A DNA stretch of 64,000 nucleotides, from assembly GCA_021846225.1 (NCBI GenBank), contig JAJZCG010000002.1, positions 1 through 64,000 of the forward strand. The letters are read 5' to 3'. Made by a program: the position numbers and the translations under genes. This DNA comes from Pseudomonadota bacterium. Its GTDB lineage: Bacteria > Pseudomonadota > Alphaproteobacteria > Acetobacterales > Acetobacteraceae. The notes under the pieces were generated by a model, which did no database searches, was not told where the DNA came from, and was given only the letters and a program-made list of their open reading frames with translations. Shown here in pieces: positions 9,306 to 28,597 of the stretch. Position 1 is the first letter of the stretch; the number at the start of each line of letters is the position of its first letter.

Positions 9306-12300
9306 TTACCAGCGATAATTCGCCAGCACGTCAAAAGTATTGAAGTGCACGTTTCCGGCGAACTGGCCGTTGTAGGCGACTTTGAGGGTCAAAGGCTCGT
9401 GCCGGCCCGCGATGGTAAGTCCGGCGCCGGTGTTCAGCGCCGCGTCCGGGGCGGCCATGCCATTTTCTGAACCGGCCAGCAGGCCAACGGTTTCCGCCTG
9501 GGTGACATGCAGTGTTCCGGCATAGCCCGTGCCTCCCACCGACACCCAGGGGATGATCGTGGCAGCCGCAGTACGCAGGTCGTAGCCCATGCGCAGACCA
9601 CTGGAGAAGGCCGCCACGCTGGTGGAGAGGATGCCGTAACGGATGTTCAGATCAACGCCACCACCAACGGCTCCCTTTTCGGTAAAGCCCGCAAGCTGGT
9701 TATGCAGATAGCTGATCCGCCCGTAGGGCATCAGAAAAGCCTTGTTTAGCGGGATTAGGTACTGCGCCTGGATCCCGGCCGCCGTATACCAGCCATCGGT
9801 AGCCCCCGTGCCAATGACGTTGCTGGGATAGAGAAAGCGGGTGCTGCTCTGATGCAGATATCCTGCCCCCAGGGTTGCGGACAGGCGCAAGTGGCCCTGG
9901 GTATCGATGGCATAGCCGAAGGCGCCAAAGGACTGGCTGTCCACGGCCTGCTGAGCTGAGGATGCTCTCGCACCAATCCTCGTGAGCGCGCCACCGAGCA
10001 CCAGATGGCGGTTGACCGCGGCGCCATATCCGGCGATGCCGCCATAGTCGTCCACGCCCGCGCCATTGCCATGGCCAAAACCACCGAAGCCTTTACCCCA
10101 GGCGCCTTGGCGGCTGCCGGTGAAGCGCACCGTATTTCCATCTACCTGTTCAGCGCCATCCATCAGGCTGTTGATGGCGGTAAAGGTGCTGGCGTTGTTG
10201 AAAAAGGCGCTACTGACCACACCCTGCCCGCTTTTGAAGATGCGTGCATTGCTGCTGGGAGTTGCCGTCAGCTTTAGGTAGGCATCGTGGCTGCCATACG
10301 TTATTTCCGGGGTGATATAGCTCGCGAAATTCGGGTTATAACTGGTGCTGCTGAAAGTACCGGAAAGCCCCTGGGCGGCATGCACGATGTCATACTGCGC
10401 GCCAGCCGTGTAGGTTCCGGAAGCGCCGGATTTCTGCAGGATGTCTAAGCTGCCGGCCAGGGTCGCCGTGCCGGTTACCGCGAGCTGATCGTAGGTAACG
10501 CCTGGCGTCTGATCGCTGGGGGTGACCGTAATGTCCAGGGCGCCGTTCGCTGCCTGGGTATAGTTGCCGTTGACGGTGAGCGTGCCGATGCTGCCGCCGG
10601 GGTAGACAGTGCCCTGGTTGATGACATTGCCATTTATGGTGCCGTTGCCGCGCAGGACAGCCCCTCCGTCCACTGTCACCGGACCGCTGAGAGAGGCGTT
10701 CGCATGACTGGCGTCACCCACTTCCAGAAGGCCTCCGGCAACGATGGCCCCGCCAGTGCTTCCACCGGACCCATTGTCGATGATCGTACCATTGGTTTGA
10801 AGGACGCCGCTGCCGGAGATATTTCCTGTTAAGCTCAGCGCATTGGCGGTCGTGGGATTGAGACTGCTCTGGCTGGTCCCCATCAGTATGCCGCCGTTGC
10901 TGCCGATGGTCAGAGCATTCGCCAGAGCGATGGATGAGGCACTGGCATTGCTGGCGAGCGTGCCGCCGTTGATGGTGATGATGCCGGTGCCAGCATTGCC
11001 GCCCGCGCCGATGCTCAGAGTGCCGCCACCATTGATCGTCGTGCCGCCGCTGTAGGTGTTGGCGCCGGAGAGGGTCAGAGACCCGGTGCCGTTCATAACG
11101 AGGGCGCCGGTGGTTCCCGGCGCTTCACCGATAACGCCGGAGAAGGTATCCGTGCCACTGCCCGTCGTGGTGAGGGTGCCGCCATTGAGGTTGAGGGCGC
11201 CTGCGCCATTCAAATCCGTAATGGTCTGCGTCGCGTTGGCCATATTGGCCGTGGCGCCGCTGGCGATGGTCAACGCGCCGCCTCCCAGCGCACCGCCACT
11301 GGCGATGTCCAGGGTGCCGTTGCTGACGGCCGTGCCGCCGCTGTAGGTGTTGGTGCCGGTGAGGGTCGTGGTTCCGGCGCCAGTAAAGGTCATGCCGCCC
11401 GCACCAGATATCACGCCGGAGAGGGTATCGGTGTTGCCGCCGTTATTGATGGTGCCACCGCCAGCGAAGAGAGTGATGGCGCGGGTAGCGCTGATATTGG
11501 CCGTCGTGAGCAGGGTACCGCCCGCGAAAGCCAACCCGCCCGTGCTGGCGCCCAGGTTCGTGTCACTACTGATGGCGAGCGTGCCGCCATTGATCTGCCA
11601 AGGGGTAACCGCCGTCGTGGTACCGGTCAGTGTCCAAATCGTACTCGGTGAGCCGTTCACCACATAGTTGGTGAAGCCCTGGAACACGGCCCCTGATCCA
11701 ATCGTGCTGGTATTCAAAGTGGCGTTGGCATTACCTCCCAGTTCCAGGGTGTCACCGCCTCCAGCCGTACCGCTGGTGCTCACCACATTGCCCGTGAAAA
11801 CATAACCGTTTTCGAGGATCAGCGTGTTGCCGCCGCCCGACAGGTCCATAGCGTTCGCGTATACCGAGCTACCGTAATACCGGCCGCCTCCGATTGTGCC
11901 CGCGTTGGTAACCGTGGAGTTGCCCGTAGAAACCACACCCGCGCCGCCGTGGCCGCCGCTTTGGCCGCAGAGGCTGTTAGTACTTCCGATGCCACAGCTG
12001 AAGCCGTAGCCGCCGTTGATCGTCCCGCTATTCGTGAGGATGAAACCCGTGCCACTCACCCCGGATCCACCAGCGCCACCGGTGCCGCCGAAGCCGCCAA
12101 TGCCGCCGAAGCCGACGGGGCCGCCAGCGCCGCCGAAGCCGCCGAGGCCGCCGGTGATCGTCCCGCTATTCGTGAGAGTGAAACTCGTGCCGCTCACCCC
12201 GGATCCACCCGTACCGGCGTTGCCACCGGTGTTGCCGGGGCCGCCGGTGCCGCCCTTGCCACCGGCACCGCCGATGATCGTCGCGTTATTCGCGAGGGTG

Positions 12301-13343
12301 AAACCCGTGCCGCTCACCCCGGATCCACCAGTGCCGCCGAGGCCGCCGAAGCCGCCATAGCTGCCATAGCCGCCGTTGCCGCCGTTGCCGCCTTTGCCGC
12401 CGTTGCCGCCGGAGATTGTCCCGCTATTCGTGAGAGTAAAACCCGTGCCGCTCACCCCGGATCCACCAGTGCCGCCAATGCCACCCGAGCCGCCGGCGCC
12501 GCCGACGCTGTTGCCGCCGTAGCCGCCGTGGCCGCCGTAGCCGCCGGCGATTGTGCCGCTATTCGTGAGGGTAAAACCCGTGCCGCTCGCACCGGAGCCG
12601 CCGGCGCCGCCGGCGCCGCCGAAGCCGCCGAAGGTGCTGCCGCCGCCGGCGGTGCCGCCGAAGCCGCCGGCACCGCCGGAGATTGTCCCGTTATTCGTGA
12701 GGGCGAATCCCGTGCCGCTCACCCCGTCCCCCCCCGCGCCGCCAGTACCGCCGGCGCCTGTGAAGGTGCCGAAGCCCGCAGAGCTGCCAGCACCACCGGT
12801 GCCGGCAGCGCCACCGGCGCCACCGGCAATCGAAACACCACTCGCTACGCTGGTTTGATCAGACGGCGTCAGTCCTCCATAGGCCGGAGTACTTCCAGAA
12901 CCACCTCCGCCCCCCGCGCTCGTGCCTCCCGCGCCCGTGCCCCCCGCACCGCCCGTGCCCCCCGCACCATAGCCGCCGCCGCCAGGGCCACCCGCAACTC
13001 CGGCTAACCTGGAACTGCCTCCGCTCCCACCGGCATTCCCATACGCGCCTGTACCCGTGTAGGTGCTGGCTCCACCTATACCCGGCGTCGAGATGTTCGC
13101 GTTCCCTCCGGCATTACCGGCATTTCCTGTTTTATTCGTAAGCGCGATCGTCGCAGCCCAAGCAGGCATCGCCGCCTCCGGCCCCCCGCCCAAGGCCAGG
13201 GCCAGCGCCAACACCAACAGCCGCCGCCCCTGAATCTCCCAGCGCTCCGTAACACACCCCTTGTGCGGCGCTCTCTCTAATTCCAAAACCACATGCGGGG
13301 TCATCAGGCCGCTTTCCCGGATTGGTTTGTGAATACGCTTCAT
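9306..13343 (-). CDS. Large autotransporter (type Va-like): extended signal peptide, Gly-rich repeat passenger, PATR-like beta-helix, C-terminal autotransporter beta-domain
   Basis: Long N-terminal leader ending PAWAA; Gly/Ala/Ser repeats with SGVSGTGFTLTNSGTISGG units; GAGTTTLTGTNTYSGGTAVSNGTLDIASGG passenger-associated repeats; C-terminal ~270 aa with QGAWGKGFGGFG...YLIPLNKAFLMPYGRISYLHN...VLANYRW (terminal aromatic). Confidence 0.9.
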   Translation of the reverse strand: MKRIHKPIRESGLMTPHVVLELERAPHKGCVTERWEIQGRRLLVLALALALGGGPEAAMPAWAATIALTNKTGNAGNAGGNANISTPGIGGASTYTGTGAYGNAGGSGGSSRLAGVAGGPGGGGYGAGGTGGAGGTGAGGTSAGGGGGSGSTPAYGGLTPSDQTSVASGVSIAGGAGGAAGTGGAGSSAGFGTFTGAGGTGGAGGDGVSGTGFALTNNGTISGGAGGFGGTAGGGSTFGGFGGAGGAGGSGASGTGFTLTNSGTIAGGYGGHGGYGGNSVGGAGGSGGIGGTGGSGVSGTGFTLTNSGTISGGNGGKGGNGGNGGYGSYGGFGGLGGTGGSGVSGTGFTLANNATIIGGAGGKGGTGGPGNTGGNAGTGGSGVSGTSFTLTNSGTITGGLGGFGGAGGPVGFGGIGGFGGTGGAGGSGVSGTGFILTNSGTINGGYGFSCGIGSTNSLCGQSGGHGGAGVVSTGNSTVTNAGTIGGGRYYGSSVYANAMDLSGGGNTLILENGYVFTGNVVSTSGTAGGGDTLELGGNANATLNTSTIGSGAVFQGFTNYVVNGSPSTIWTLTGTTTAVTPWQINGGTLAISSDTNLGASTGGLAFAGGTLLTTANISATRAITLFAGGGTINNGGNTDTLSGVISGAGGMTFTGAGTTTLTGTNTYSGGTAVSNGTLDIASGGALGGGALTIASGATANMANATQTITDLNGAGALNLNGGTLTTTGSGTDTFSGVIGEAPGTTGALVMNGTGSLTLSGANTYSGGTTINGGGTLSIGAGGNAGTGIITINGGTLASNASASSIALANALTIGSNGGILMGTSQSSLNPTTANALSLTGNISGSGVLQTNGTIIDNGSGGSTGGAIVAGGLLEVGDASHANASLSGPVTVDGGAVLRGNGTINGNVINQGTVYPGGSIGTLTVNGNYTQAANGALDITVTPSDQTPGVTYDQLAVTGTATLAGSLDILQKSGASGTYTAGAQYDIVHAAQGLSGTFSSTSYNPNFASYITPEITYGSHDAYLKLTATPSSNARIFKSGQGVVSSAFFNNASTFTAINSLMDGAEQVDGNTVRFTGSRQGAWGKGFGGFGHGNGAGVDDYGGIAGYGAAVNRHLVLGGALTRIGARASSAQQAVDSQSFGAFGYAIDTQGHLRLSATLGAGYLHQSSTRFLYPSNVIGTGATDGWYTAAGIQAQYLIPLNKAFLMPYGRISYLHNQLAGFTEKGAVGGGVDLNIRYGILSTSVAAFSSGLRMGYDLRTAAATIIPWVSVGGTGYAGTLHVTQAETVGLLAGSENGMAAPDAALNTGAGLTIAGRHEPLTLKVAYNGQFAGNVHFNTFDVLANYRW
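12019..12730 (-). repeat. Irregularly spaced intragenic repeat encoding [SG]xSGTGFxLTNxxTIxGG (6 clear copies)
   Basis: Plus strand shows near-identical ~50-bp blocks 'at(t/c)gtcccgctattcgtgagrgtraaacccgtgccgctcaccccggatccacc' at about 12019, 12157, 12277, 12415, 12550 and 12680, separated by Gly-rich coding spacers. Confidence 0.9.
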
Positions 13344-20349: not shown

Positions 20350-20353
<4 letters not shown>

Positions 20354-21414
20354 GCCAGGCCGTAGCCGCGCCGTTCCGGTCGCACATTGCGCATCAGCCG
20401 CATTAACATACCCTCGCGTAATCCTCTGTCAGCCACCACGAGATCGGGTATCTGCCACAGTTCGTGGATGGCGGCAAAAATCGCGCAACCCGGCAACACG
20501 AAATCAACCCGGTCCGCGCCGATGCACGGATGGCGGCTCAACCCCTCCCGCCCGAGCGCCTTGGCCTCGGCCAGCGCGGCCTCCACGGCGCCACGGTTCA
20601 TGAAGAAGCCGTCCACCAGCCCGCGCCGGTAGCGCTCCAGCTTCAACGACACCCCGGCCAGCGTGGTCACGGTGCCTGATGTTCCCACCATAAGCACCCC
20701 GCCCTGGCGGATTTCCTGGCCGATCCGGTGCACCGCCTCGAAGGGCCGCAGCATCGCGGCCACACTTTCCACCACCGCGGCGAACCCTTCCTCAGTGTAG
20801 CAGGCATGTGTGCAACGCTCCGAGAGGGTGACAACCCCCACCGGCAACGAGAGATAGCCGATCAACTCCGGTGCGGCGCCGTTGCAGTTCACCCGCACCC
20901 ACGCAACCTCCGTGGAGCCGCCCCCGATATCGAACAGCAACGCCCGCCGCTCCGCCTTGGCGATGAGCGAGGCGCAGCTCTCCATCGCCAGCTCGGCTTC
21001 CTCGCGGGTGTTGATGATCTCAAGCGGCAGCCCCGTGCGTGCGCGCGCCAGGGCGATGAACTCCGCGCCGTTTTCAGCCTGGCGGCAGGCTTCGGTGGCA
21101 ATCGCGCGCAGCCGCAGCGGGCCCGCTCCCGAATCCACGGCCCAGCGTCTCGCCCGCTCGGCGCAAATGCTCAAACTGGCAATCGCGCGCTCCATTGCCT
21201 CGGCGGAGAGCCGGCCGGTCTCATACAGCCCCTCGCCAAGCCGCACGACTCGCGAGAAACTATCGAGCACCTGGAACCCTTGGCCTGCCGGCGTGCCCAG
21301 CAGCATGCGGCAATTGTTCGTCCCCAGGTCGATTCCCGCAAATACCGGCCGCCGCCCGCCCCGTTTGGGAAGGGCGCCTGCCGGGGCGTTCAATGCTGAG
21401 GACGTGCTGGCCAT
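20350..21414 (-). CDS. Ppx/GppA family phosphatase (exopolyphosphatase-like)
   Basis: FAGIDLGTNNCRMLLG, AIATEACRQAENGAEFI, ALLFDIGGGSTEVAWV, MVGTSGTVTTLAG. Start inferred at ATG 21414; the longer ORF runs antisense through the tRNA. Confidence 0.93.
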
Positions 21415-21563
21415 ATCGCTTGTATAGTCGCGCCTTATTGGGGTGATGGGCAAGCGGGAAAGCAGACCCGCGCGCCACCACCCGATTAAATTTATGACAA
21501 TCCCCCCGCCCCAGATGTTGCAGCCCGCGCCCACCGGTGCTAATCGGGCCTCGCTGTGACCGT

Positions 21564-21637
21564 TGGGGGATAGTTTAGCGGTAGAACTCCTGGCTCTGAC
21601 CCGGGCAGCCTTGGTTCGAATCCAGGTCCCCCAGCCA
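21564..21637 (+). tRNA. tRNA-Gln (anticodon CUG), CCA encoded
   Basis: Cloverleaf folded by hand: acceptor TGGGGGA/TCCCCCA, anticodon stem CCTGG-CTCTGAC-CCGGG (anticodon CTG), T arm CTTGG-TTCGAAT-CCAGG, 3' GCCA. Confidence 0.92.
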
Positions 21638-21654
21638 CCGCATCCACTAAAATC

Positions 21655-21777
21655 CAAAGCTTGATCATCCGCATCCCTGAAATCGCCTGGCGCCATGGCT
21701 ATGTCTACGCCTGGGGGGTGATGATCCTCTCGGCCGTGCTATCGCTGGCATGGTTCCGCAAGAAAGGCTGGCTATGA
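21655..21777 (+). pseudogene. Orphan 3' end of a CorA-type Mg2+ transporter gene
   Basis: In-frame IRIPEIAWRHGYVYAWGVMILSAVLSLAWFRKKGWL* matches the terminal TM helix and tail of CorA (E. coli ...[34 protein letters not shown]). No upstream CorA sequence: the frame runs directly into the tRNA gene. Confidence 0.6.
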
Positions 21778-22292: not shown

Positions 22293-22658
22293 CTATGTCA
22301 GGATCGCGGCGGCGGCCTTGGCGGCGCGGTTGGCATCAATGAAGAGCAGGCCAAGCTTGATCGCCTTGCTGGCGATGGCGCACAGCACGGCATCGTTGCC
22401 GGCATGAACAATGAGCACATACCCCTGCGCGCCGCTGATCATCACTTGTTCCAGATTCCCGCAGGATAGTTCAGCGGTGGTCTGTTCGCCCAATGAGAGC
22501 ATGGCGCCAACCATGGTGCTGATCCGCTCTTCATCCATACCCGGCGAAAGCGCCGAGGAAATGATCAGGCCATCGGTGGAAATCAAGGCGGAAGCTTCAA
22601 TATCAACAGAATCCCCATTCAGATCCGTCAGAATGGCTTTTATCTGGTCTTCACGCAT
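22293..22658 (-). CDS. Roadblock/LC7 domain protein (stand-alone)
   Basis: ALISTDGLIISSALSPGMDEERISTMVGAMLSLGEQTTAELSCGNLEQVMISGAQGYVLIVHAGNDAVLCAIASKAIKLGLLFIDANRAAKAA is a typical bacterial Roadblock/LC7 pattern. Confidence 0.85.
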   Translation of the reverse strand: MREDQIKAILTDLNGDSVDIEASALISTDGLIISSALSPGMDEERISTMVGAMLSLGEQTTAELSCGNLEQVMISGAQGYVLIVHAGNDAVLCAIASKAIKLGLLFIDANRAAKAAAAILT

Positions 22659-23030
22659 GAATGCCTCCAAAAATTGAGCACGCCGCAGAGATTAAAAGCT
22701 TTTGGTTTTGGCGCAATACGAGCAGACAACGATATTTTTTAATGAGACGCCACAATGCTTCACCAGGGCGGGCGCGCCGCAAATGCATTTCATAAATGAA
22801 ACCATGCAACACAAATATTTGAACAGCCTGGCACGCCGCCGCCCGCGCGCGCCGGGCTGGGGGATGGAAAATCTGAGTTGCCGTGTATCGTGCAGCGGAA
22901 TACGCAACGTACCGTTGTGGAAACGGCTGATAAAATTGCCGGTGTGGCGCATAAAATCTCCGCTGGCGGGGTGTCTGCCGGGGAAGTTTGCGTTATTGCT
23001 GTGGTGGCAGCAAACCTGCTGGAGGTGCTC

Positions 23031-24113
23031 ATGCGTGAAGATCAAATAATCGCCATCCTCTCGGCCCTGAACAGCCGCACCGCCGGCATCCAGGCATCCG
23101 CGCTCATCTCCACGGACGGTTTCATCATCGCCTCGGCCCTCGCCGCGGGCATGGATGAAGACCGCGTCAGCGCCCTCATTGCCGCCACCCTCTCGCTGGG
23201 CGAGCGGACGGCGCTGGAACTCACCCGCGGGAGCCTGGAACAAGTGATGGTCAGCGGCAGGCAAGGCCCTGTGCTCATTATCCGTGCCGGGCGCGATGCG
23301 GTGCTGTGCGCCATCGCCGCTAAATCCACGAAGCTTGGCCTGTTGTTTCAGGATGCCAGCGCGGCCGCACAGGATATCCTGGCTCATGCCGGCGCATTCA
23401 CGGAAATTCTGGAGGCCCGGCGCGCCGTGAAAACCGTTGCGCAACCGGCAGCCGAGACCGTTGGGGCGCCAGAACCCATTGCCGAACCCATTGCCGAACC
23501 CATTGCCGAACCGGAATTCGCGGAAGAACCGCCCCTGATCCTGGATGAAACATATCTGCTCCACCCTGCTCGCGCGGATGAGCCCGCGCCAACGGATCAG
23601 ACCCTGCACGTCTTTTGCCAGGATGTCGGCTTCACGGCGCAAGACCAGGAGATCATCAAATCCCTGCGGAGCCTGATGCACCCGCTCCTGCCCTCCCTCA
23701 CCGAGCGTTTCTACAAAGTCCTGCTGGCTGACCCGCAAATGGCCCCCTACATCCAGAACCGGGTCGATATGCTCAGGAAAACCCATCAGGCCTGGCTGGA
23801 GAGCCTGTTCGAGGGTGATTACGGACCGGCTTTCGTGCGCCGCCAGCAGGAAATCGGCGAGGCTCATACACGCGCCAACATTCCCCCCATTTATTTCGCG
23901 GCGAGCATGGTCTTCCTGCGGGCTGCAATCCCCGCCCTGCTCACCAACAACATTTCCAACCCGGCTGACCAGGCGCTGGCCGGCAGCTCTCTGCTCCGGC
24001 TGCTCGACCTGTGCCAGTACCTCATAGACCCCAAATACTATCAGGTGCTGATCCGCCTCGGCCAGATCACCAAACAACCCGCCCCGCCATCGGGCTCAGC
24101 GCTCAGGGTCTAG
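23031..24113 (+). CDS. Roadblock/LC7 - protoglobin (globin-sensor) fusion protein
   Basis: N-term MREDQIIAILSALNSRTAGIQASALISTDGFIIASALAAGMDEDRVSALIAATLSLGERTALELTRGSLEQVMVSG... is paralogous to the 22293-22658 product; linker EPIAEPIAEPIAEP; C-term RFYKVLLADPQMAPYIQNRVDMLRKTHQAWLESLFEGDYGPAFVRRQQEIGEAHTRANIPPIYFAASMVFLRAAIPALL fits the protoglobin/globin-coupled-sensor pattern, with the proximal-His motif IGxxHxxxxIPPxxY. Confidence 0.85.
   Translation: MREDQIIAILSALNSRTAGIQASALISTDGFIIASALAAGMDEDRVSALIAATLSLGERTALELTRGSLEQVMVSGRQGPVLIIRAGRDAVLCAIAAKSTKLGLLFQDASAAAQDILAHAGAFTEILEARRAVKTVAQPAAETVGAPEPIAEPIAEPIAEPEFAEEPPLILDETYLLHPARADEPAPTDQTLHVFCQDVGFTAQDQEIIKSLRSLMHPLLPSLTERFYKVLLADPQMAPYIQNRVDMLRKTHQAWLESLFEGDYGPAFVRRQQEIGEAHTRANIPPIYFAASMVFLRAAIPALLTNNISNPADQALAGSSLLRLLDLCQYLIDPKYYQVLIRLGQITKQPAPPSGSALRV
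23475..23510 (+). repeat. 12-bp x3 in-frame tandem repeat (cccattgccgaa) in the inter-domain linker
   Basis: Read directly: cccattgccgaa cccattgccgaa cccattgccgaa, encoding PIAE repeats. Confidence 0.95.
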
Positions 24114-28307: not shown

Positions 28308-28384
28308 GGCGGAGACCCTCCTGGCAGCGTCTTTATTCTTCTCCCCCGCGCCCCGGCGTCAAGCCAAAACAGCGGCATCTTTTC

Positions 28385-28597
28385 GAGGGCGATTCACGCT
28401 TTCGGTTCGCTCAGCCTGAGCGAGCCTCAAACGATCGCACTCTATTTCCGAGGGCGATTCACGCTTTCGGTTCGCTCAGCCTGAGCGAGCCTCAAACGAT
28501 CGCACTCTATTTCCGAGGGCGATTCACGCTTTCGGTTCGCTCAGCCCGAGCGAGCCTCAAACGATCGCACTCTATTTCCGAGGGCGATTCACGCCCT
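28385..28597. repeat. 65-bp tandem direct repeat (3 full copies + partial fourth) with internal hairpin
   Basis: gagggcgattcacgctttcggttcgctcagcctgagcgagcctcaaacgatcgcactctatttcc starting at 28385, 28450, 28515, partial at 28580; hairpin GGTTCGCTCA-gcc-TGAGCGAGCC. Confidence 0.97.

Follow-up and report, generated by a model that had tools for sequence, protein, structure and literature searches.

A single reading frame that joins a Roadblock/LC7 domain to a protoglobin raises the question of what such a protein might do in the cell. This frame (P0001) lies in a stretch of 64,000 nucleotides from a bacterium of the Acetobacteraceae (positions 1 to 64,000 of contig JAJZCG010000002.1), which we call the window throughout. 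An earlier note, written from the DNA letters, had proposed that P0001 would feed an O2 or redox signal into a Roadblock dimer. The data described below lead us to favor, with a probability of roughly 0.55, the reading that P0001 would be a soluble haem-based sensor of O2 or redox state (possibly of NO), which acts on a Roadblock homo- or heterodimer.

The fusion gene and its two domains

The following elements of the locus are relevant for this reading:

23031..24113, plus strand: Roadblock-protoglobin fusion gene P0001, 360 aa (open reading frame, Pfam, dN/dS)
23021..23026, plus strand: Shine-Dalgarno sequence GGAGGT of P0001 (the sequence itself; kept in four relatives)
23073..23318, plus strand: Roadblock/LC7 domain, aa 15-96 (PF03259, E 1.3e-13; fold resembles archaeal Roadblock 9jue and MglB)
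23472..23512, plus strand: 12-bp tandem repeat coding for the PIAE linker (TRF, 3.4 copies, 100%; predicted disordered stretch)
23616..24026, plus strand: protoglobin domain, aa 196-332 (PF11563, E 1.7e-24; Foldseek match 2w31, TM 0.87 of target)
22293..22658, minus strand: standalone Roadblock gene P0002, divergent from P0001, 121 aa (PF03259, E 3.5e-12; synteny in relatives)
22659..23030, no strand: divergent intergenic region between P0002 and P0001 (conserved AT-rich block beside the P0002 start in an alignment of five species)

When P0001 was compared with Pfam, Robl_LC7 scored 50.9 bits (curated cut-off 23) and, beyond this family and Protoglobin, no family exceeded its cut-off. NCBIfam and defense-system models yielded no match for either P0001 or P0002. 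An AlphaFold2 model built with 17 sequences of the genus indicated a confident Roadblock fold and a confident all-helical globin, which are joined by a disordered linker (aa 136-188, pLDDT below 50). Since this model reached a pTM of 0.46 and a mean pLDDT of 69, the placement of the two domains relative to each other is not predicted. In Foldseek, the N-terminal half matched the Roadblock proteins 9jue, 7f8m and MglB (1j3w/3t1s) and the C-terminal half the sensor globins 2w31, 5ohe and 1or4 (HemAT). With its PF03259 match and its alpha/beta fold (DSSP of the model, Foldseek), the N-terminal part belongs to the Roadblock/LC7 superfamily, and the PF11563 match, the globin fold and a proximal histidine at F8 place the C-terminal part among the protoglobins or sensor (S) globins. 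These data bear out the structural description given in the earlier note, which had named both domains, a PIAE-repeat linker, a candidate proximal histidine (our His279) and the motifs FYKVLLADPQMAPYI and GDYGPAFVRRQQEIGEAHTRANIPPIYFAA, both of which are present in P0001.

According to the reading frames of the window, P0001 starts with the ATG at 23031 and ends at 24113. Comparison with four relatives gave dN/dS values of 0.21-0.33, and by this measure the gene is kept under purifying selection. Conservation, synteny and dN/dS together rule out that P0001 is a sequencing oddity or a chance reading frame. Its neighbors sufE and parC, between which it is located, point to no pathway. Directly 3' of P0001 (24117-24130), we observed an exact copy of GCGATCGTTTGAGG, which is part of a 65-bp unit present in 3.3 copies (98% identical) at 28380-28594 of the window; four matches were counted vs. 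0.6 expected.

The divergent Roadblock protein P0002 shares 64% identity with the N-terminus of P0001. The region between the two genes is a candidate for a shared control region, as judged from its conserved AT-rich block. It involves no sigma-70 consensus, and promoter and terminator consensus scores were no higher there than in shuffled sequences. An FNR-type box between the two genes was considered and rejected: the window carries 18 loose matches vs. 11 expected, and the one nearest to the divergent region (22573) lies within coding sequence.

Two other parts of the window deserve mention in their own right. A glycine-rich reading frame of 1345 aa on the minus strand (9306-13343) contains long tandem repeats and, by eye, an autotransporter-like C-terminus; a Pfam search at E 1e-5 assigned it to no family. 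A tRNA-Gln (CTG) gene on the plus strand (21564-21637) is located within the N-terminal extension of an opposite-strand frame (20350-21696) that resembles an exopolyphosphatase by eye, and the real start of this frame is therefore probably downstream.

Gene contexts and the question of a GTPase partner

Named relatives place the window's organism in Acidocella, a genus of acid-loving bacteria. In a genus-wide search, the Roadblock domain was detected in 18 of 38 Acidocella genomes, and when the fetched loci were read with profiles, no fewer than 16 of the 38 proved to carry the fusion to protoglobin (one of these 16 fusions is truncated by the end of its locus). Within the same order, just one other genus carries a Roadblock domain, as single-domain protein, and among 395 genomes sampled from the class the domain was found in none except the window's own. 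This rarity suggests, without proving it, that Acidocella gained the domain from outside the class. A plasmid search returned no fusion; Roadblock-only matches came from Deinococcus and Neisseria.

The Acidocella loci fall into three contexts. Between sufE and parC, context I (the window and L062-L066) has a P0002-type Roadblock gene and the fusion in divergent orientation. Three of these loci (L062, L064, L065) carry a standalone Roadblock gene followed by a standalone protoglobin gene, the latter of which is missing in the window. In context II (L067, L068, L072), standalone genes for a protoglobin and a Roadblock protein run toward the fusion, so that separate copies of the two parts are neighbors at six Acidocella loci. 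In context III (L069-L071, L073, L074), a single fusion or a tandem pair lies close to trpB/trpA and to a gene for a ClC-type channel, and in L073 and L074 the fusions sit behind an S24-type repressor gene. In the protoglobin tree, all fused globins fall into a single clade with support 98/93, whose neighbors are the standalone protoglobins of Acidocella; this is the pattern expected from one fusion followed by duplication. Within the sampled tree, the fused globins thus share a single origin as far as globin phylogeny tells; support in the Roadblock tree is too weak for counting fusion events.

The same two parts occur as separate genes in other lineages. In Candidatus Thiodiazotropha (L075), the gene order is Ras-like GTPase, an unknown 233-aa gene, protoglobin and Roadblock. 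In a family of the same phylum (f38), a standalone protoglobin was matched in five genomes and adjoins a Roadblock gene in four of them. One of these genomes carries an alternating run (Robl-Pgb-Robl-Pgb-Robl) downstream of a gene for an ODP-family di-iron protein (PF19583, E 6.8e-74), and at two loci of this family (L118, L119) a small-GTPase (MglA-like) gene lies downstream of the Roadblock and protoglobin genes. A fourth lineage (G735) has a protoglobin gene (178 aa) behind a Roadblock gene (231 aa). Related Roadblock genes lie by a GTPase gene in L127 and by a PAS gene in L124. Adjacency in several lineages combined with fusion in one is a usual sign that two proteins act together, and we read the present pattern in this way, leaving the mode of joint action aside. 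Since the separate genes are in several cases located beside a Ras-like GTPase, the ancestral output of the Roadblock-protoglobin pair was probably a small GTPase.

Two further arrangements were observed in these genomes. In L118, the ODP-family gene (10574-11323) accompanies a small-GTPase gene and Roadblock genes that alternate with protoglobin genes, so this cluster may combine two kinds of O2 sensor. Genome G754 carries three tandem protoglobin genes (L123, 7924-10045) and, elsewhere, the Roadblock gene next to the PAS gene (L124).

For the window's organism, a small-GTPase partner as proposed earlier was not recovered. In its genome (97.8% complete), PF00025 and PF08477 matched only IF2- and Der-like proteins, and searches with PF03029 and with the MglA-like GTPase of Thiodiazotropha did not reveal an MglA-like GTPase either. 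With the latter two queries, an MglA-like gene was detected in only three of the 38 Acidocella genomes (G068, G140, G212), where it forms an operon with Roadblock-like genes separate from the fusion; a weak fourth match in G214 (E 8e-4, 650-aa frame) was left out of this count. Consequently, 13 of the 16 fusion-bearing genomes, several of them 98-100% complete, are without a detected MglA-like GTPase. In three Acidocella genomes (L083, L084, L085), an operon of Roadblock-like and MglA-like GTPase genes was seen beside a histidine-kinase-like gene.

These data bear on the strongest competing explanation, according to which O2 or redox state controls P0001 as the GAP or co-factor of a small GTPase, one too divergent for our searches or encoded in the 2% that the assembly lacks. 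The clusters in Thiodiazotropha and f38 and the operons in three fusion-bearing genomes speak for such a role, as does the finding that MglB acts as GAP of MglA (PMC4316618, PMC6876712). However, four independent searches of the window's genome and the 13 fusion-bearing genomes without GTPase argue against it, and we consider this explanation unlikely, if the best of the alternatives. As far as genome searches can tell, the partner of P0001 in this organism is not a recognizable MglA.

Haem pocket and proposed mechanism

Three codons of P0001 encode residues of the predicted haem pocket:

23712..23714, plus strand: Tyr228 (motif ERFY, taken as B10), invariant in 17 fusions (alignment A3), aligned with Tyr40 of 2w31
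23784..23786, plus strand: His252 (E11), possible sixth ligand of the haem, at the aligned position of His66 in GsGCS 2w31
23865..23867, plus strand: His279 (F8), predicted proximal ligand of the haem, at the aligned position of His93 in GsGCS 2w31

In GsGCS, His66 (E11 according to PMC4476040) and His93 (F8) are the haem ligands, and the bis-histidyl structure is named in the reference list of the same paper. The E11 histidine, which the earlier note had overlooked, is common to nearly all Roadblock-linked globins, fused or separate; L070 and L042, with Tyr at this position, are the exceptions. The ordinary sensor globins that these searches also returned mostly carry Gln: E11 was Gln, Leu, Ala or Asp in 12 ordinary globin sensors of family f38 and Gln in nine of ten further ones of the phylum. 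A globin-MCP protein encoded in the window's own genome has an ordinary N-terminal globin, again with Gln at E11. Hexacoordination of the P0001 haem via His252 is a prediction from homology, and this expectation may fail.

The preferred sensor mechanism would operate as follows. His279 is the predicted point of haem attachment in the C-terminal protoglobin, and, on the model of GsGCS, His252 could serve as sixth ligand in the resting state. When a ligand binds or oxidation occurs, His252 would be pushed aside and helices E and F would shift. The flexible linker would tie the globin to the Roadblock domain, which may dimerize with itself or with P0002, and the haem state would thereby alter the Roadblock dimer and its partner binding. 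The gas or redox input envisaged in the earlier note gains support from the genus-wide fusions and from the neighboring separate genes elsewhere, whereas its GTPase end was not found in this genome.

The F8 histidine is not invariant. It is replaced by Lys in the context II fusions, by Tyr in G068 and by Phe in G216; the loci whose fused globins lack it are L067, L068, L072, L037, L074 and L043. Since several paralogous fusions have lost this ligand, haem is not needed in every member. At every context II locus whose fusion lost the F8 histidine, the separate protoglobin retains it, which fits joint working of the two proteins.

An enzymatic or storage function, in which the globin handles O2 or NO (e.g., as NO dioxygenase or O2 scavenger) or stores haem while the Roadblock domain merely oligomerizes or locates it, appears to us distinctly improbable. 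NO detoxification is frequent among globins (PMC3820574), standalone protoglobins are present at the same loci, and the linker is long and predicted to be disordered. On the other hand, P0001 lacks a reductase domain, fusions without the F8 histidine persist as reading frames, which fits a signaling or structural role better than catalysis, and in other lineages the coupling to genes for GTPases, ODP and PAS proteins is of a regulatory kind. Least probable of all is that the globin responds to a signal unrelated to haem ligands and can dispense with haem. The losses at F8 just described and the example of RsbR of Bacillus subtilis, a haem-less globin sensor (PMC4476040), speak for this reading, and the retention of Tyr (B10) and both histidines (E11, F8) in P0001 and most fusions speaks against it.

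Beyond P0001, we noted that ODP and PAS genes occupy places near Roadblock genes comparable to those of protoglobin genes. We tentatively suggest, at somewhat less than even odds, that E11-His protoglobins form a separate input class to bacterial Roadblock signaling (in several lineages Roadblock/Ras-like GTPase signaling) and are interchangeable with ODP and PAS sensors; Acidocella would have acquired, fused and duplicated this module and, in most species, uncoupled it from the GTPase.

Relation to known systems

To our knowledge, little is known about the inputs of bacterial Roadblock/Ras-like GTPase systems. A conserved haem-globin input, present as fusion and as genes near GTPases, offers a concrete and testable one, and the E11-His signature provides a quick handle for spectroscopy. 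The Acidocella case is informative because the Roadblock domain persists and duplicates where an MglA-like GTPase is not detected, and it raises the question of what role Roadblock dimers play without such a GTPase.

In the literature searched, which mostly excluded subscription journals, nothing joins protoglobin and Roadblock, no C-terminal globin-coupled sensor is described, and globin-coupled sensor and Roadblock appear together only in the paper on HGbRL (PMC4476040). Given this coverage, we go no further than to say that the fusion is a real, conserved and apparently undescribed variant of globin sensors. The earlier impression of an uncharacterized architecture thus holds for the protoglobin/Roadblock pairing but not for globin-Roadblock coupling as such, for which HGbRL is a precedent.

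With MglB/CvnB-type proteins, P0001 shares the Roadblock fold and, in other lineages, the neighborhood of protoglobin, Roadblock and Ras-like GTPase genes. It differs from them by the attached globin and by the lack of a detected cognate GTPase in its genome, where only IF2- and Der-like proteins were found, so that no MglA-MglB type pair was recognized.

In classical globin-coupled sensors, the globin comes first and the transmitter domain behind. P0001 resembles such sensors (HemAT, DosC, AfGcHK, GsGCS) in having a protoglobin with Tyr B10 and His F8, and GsGCS (2w31), with which it also has His E11 in common, is the best structural match of its globin. Unlike these proteins, it carries the globin at the C-terminal end (aa 196-332 of 360), and the partner is a Roadblock domain and not an MCP, GGDEF, kinase or STAS transmitter.

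The closest characterized precedent is HGbRL of Methylacidiphilum infernorum, a 274-aa protein with N-terminal globin and C-terminal Roadblock domain, which has been reported only in Methylacidiphilum and for which the structure of the globin domain has been solved (PMC4476040). Both proteins combine a globin with one Roadblock/LC7 domain, both are putative sensors, and helix-E hexacoordination of the haem, as in HGbRL, is predicted for P0001. However, the N-terminal globin of HGbRL is of the HGbI/flavohaemoglobin type (Tyr B10, Gln E7, Lys E10), and P0001 therefore falls outside this family: it carries at its C-terminus a protoglobin (PF11563) that has histidine at E11.
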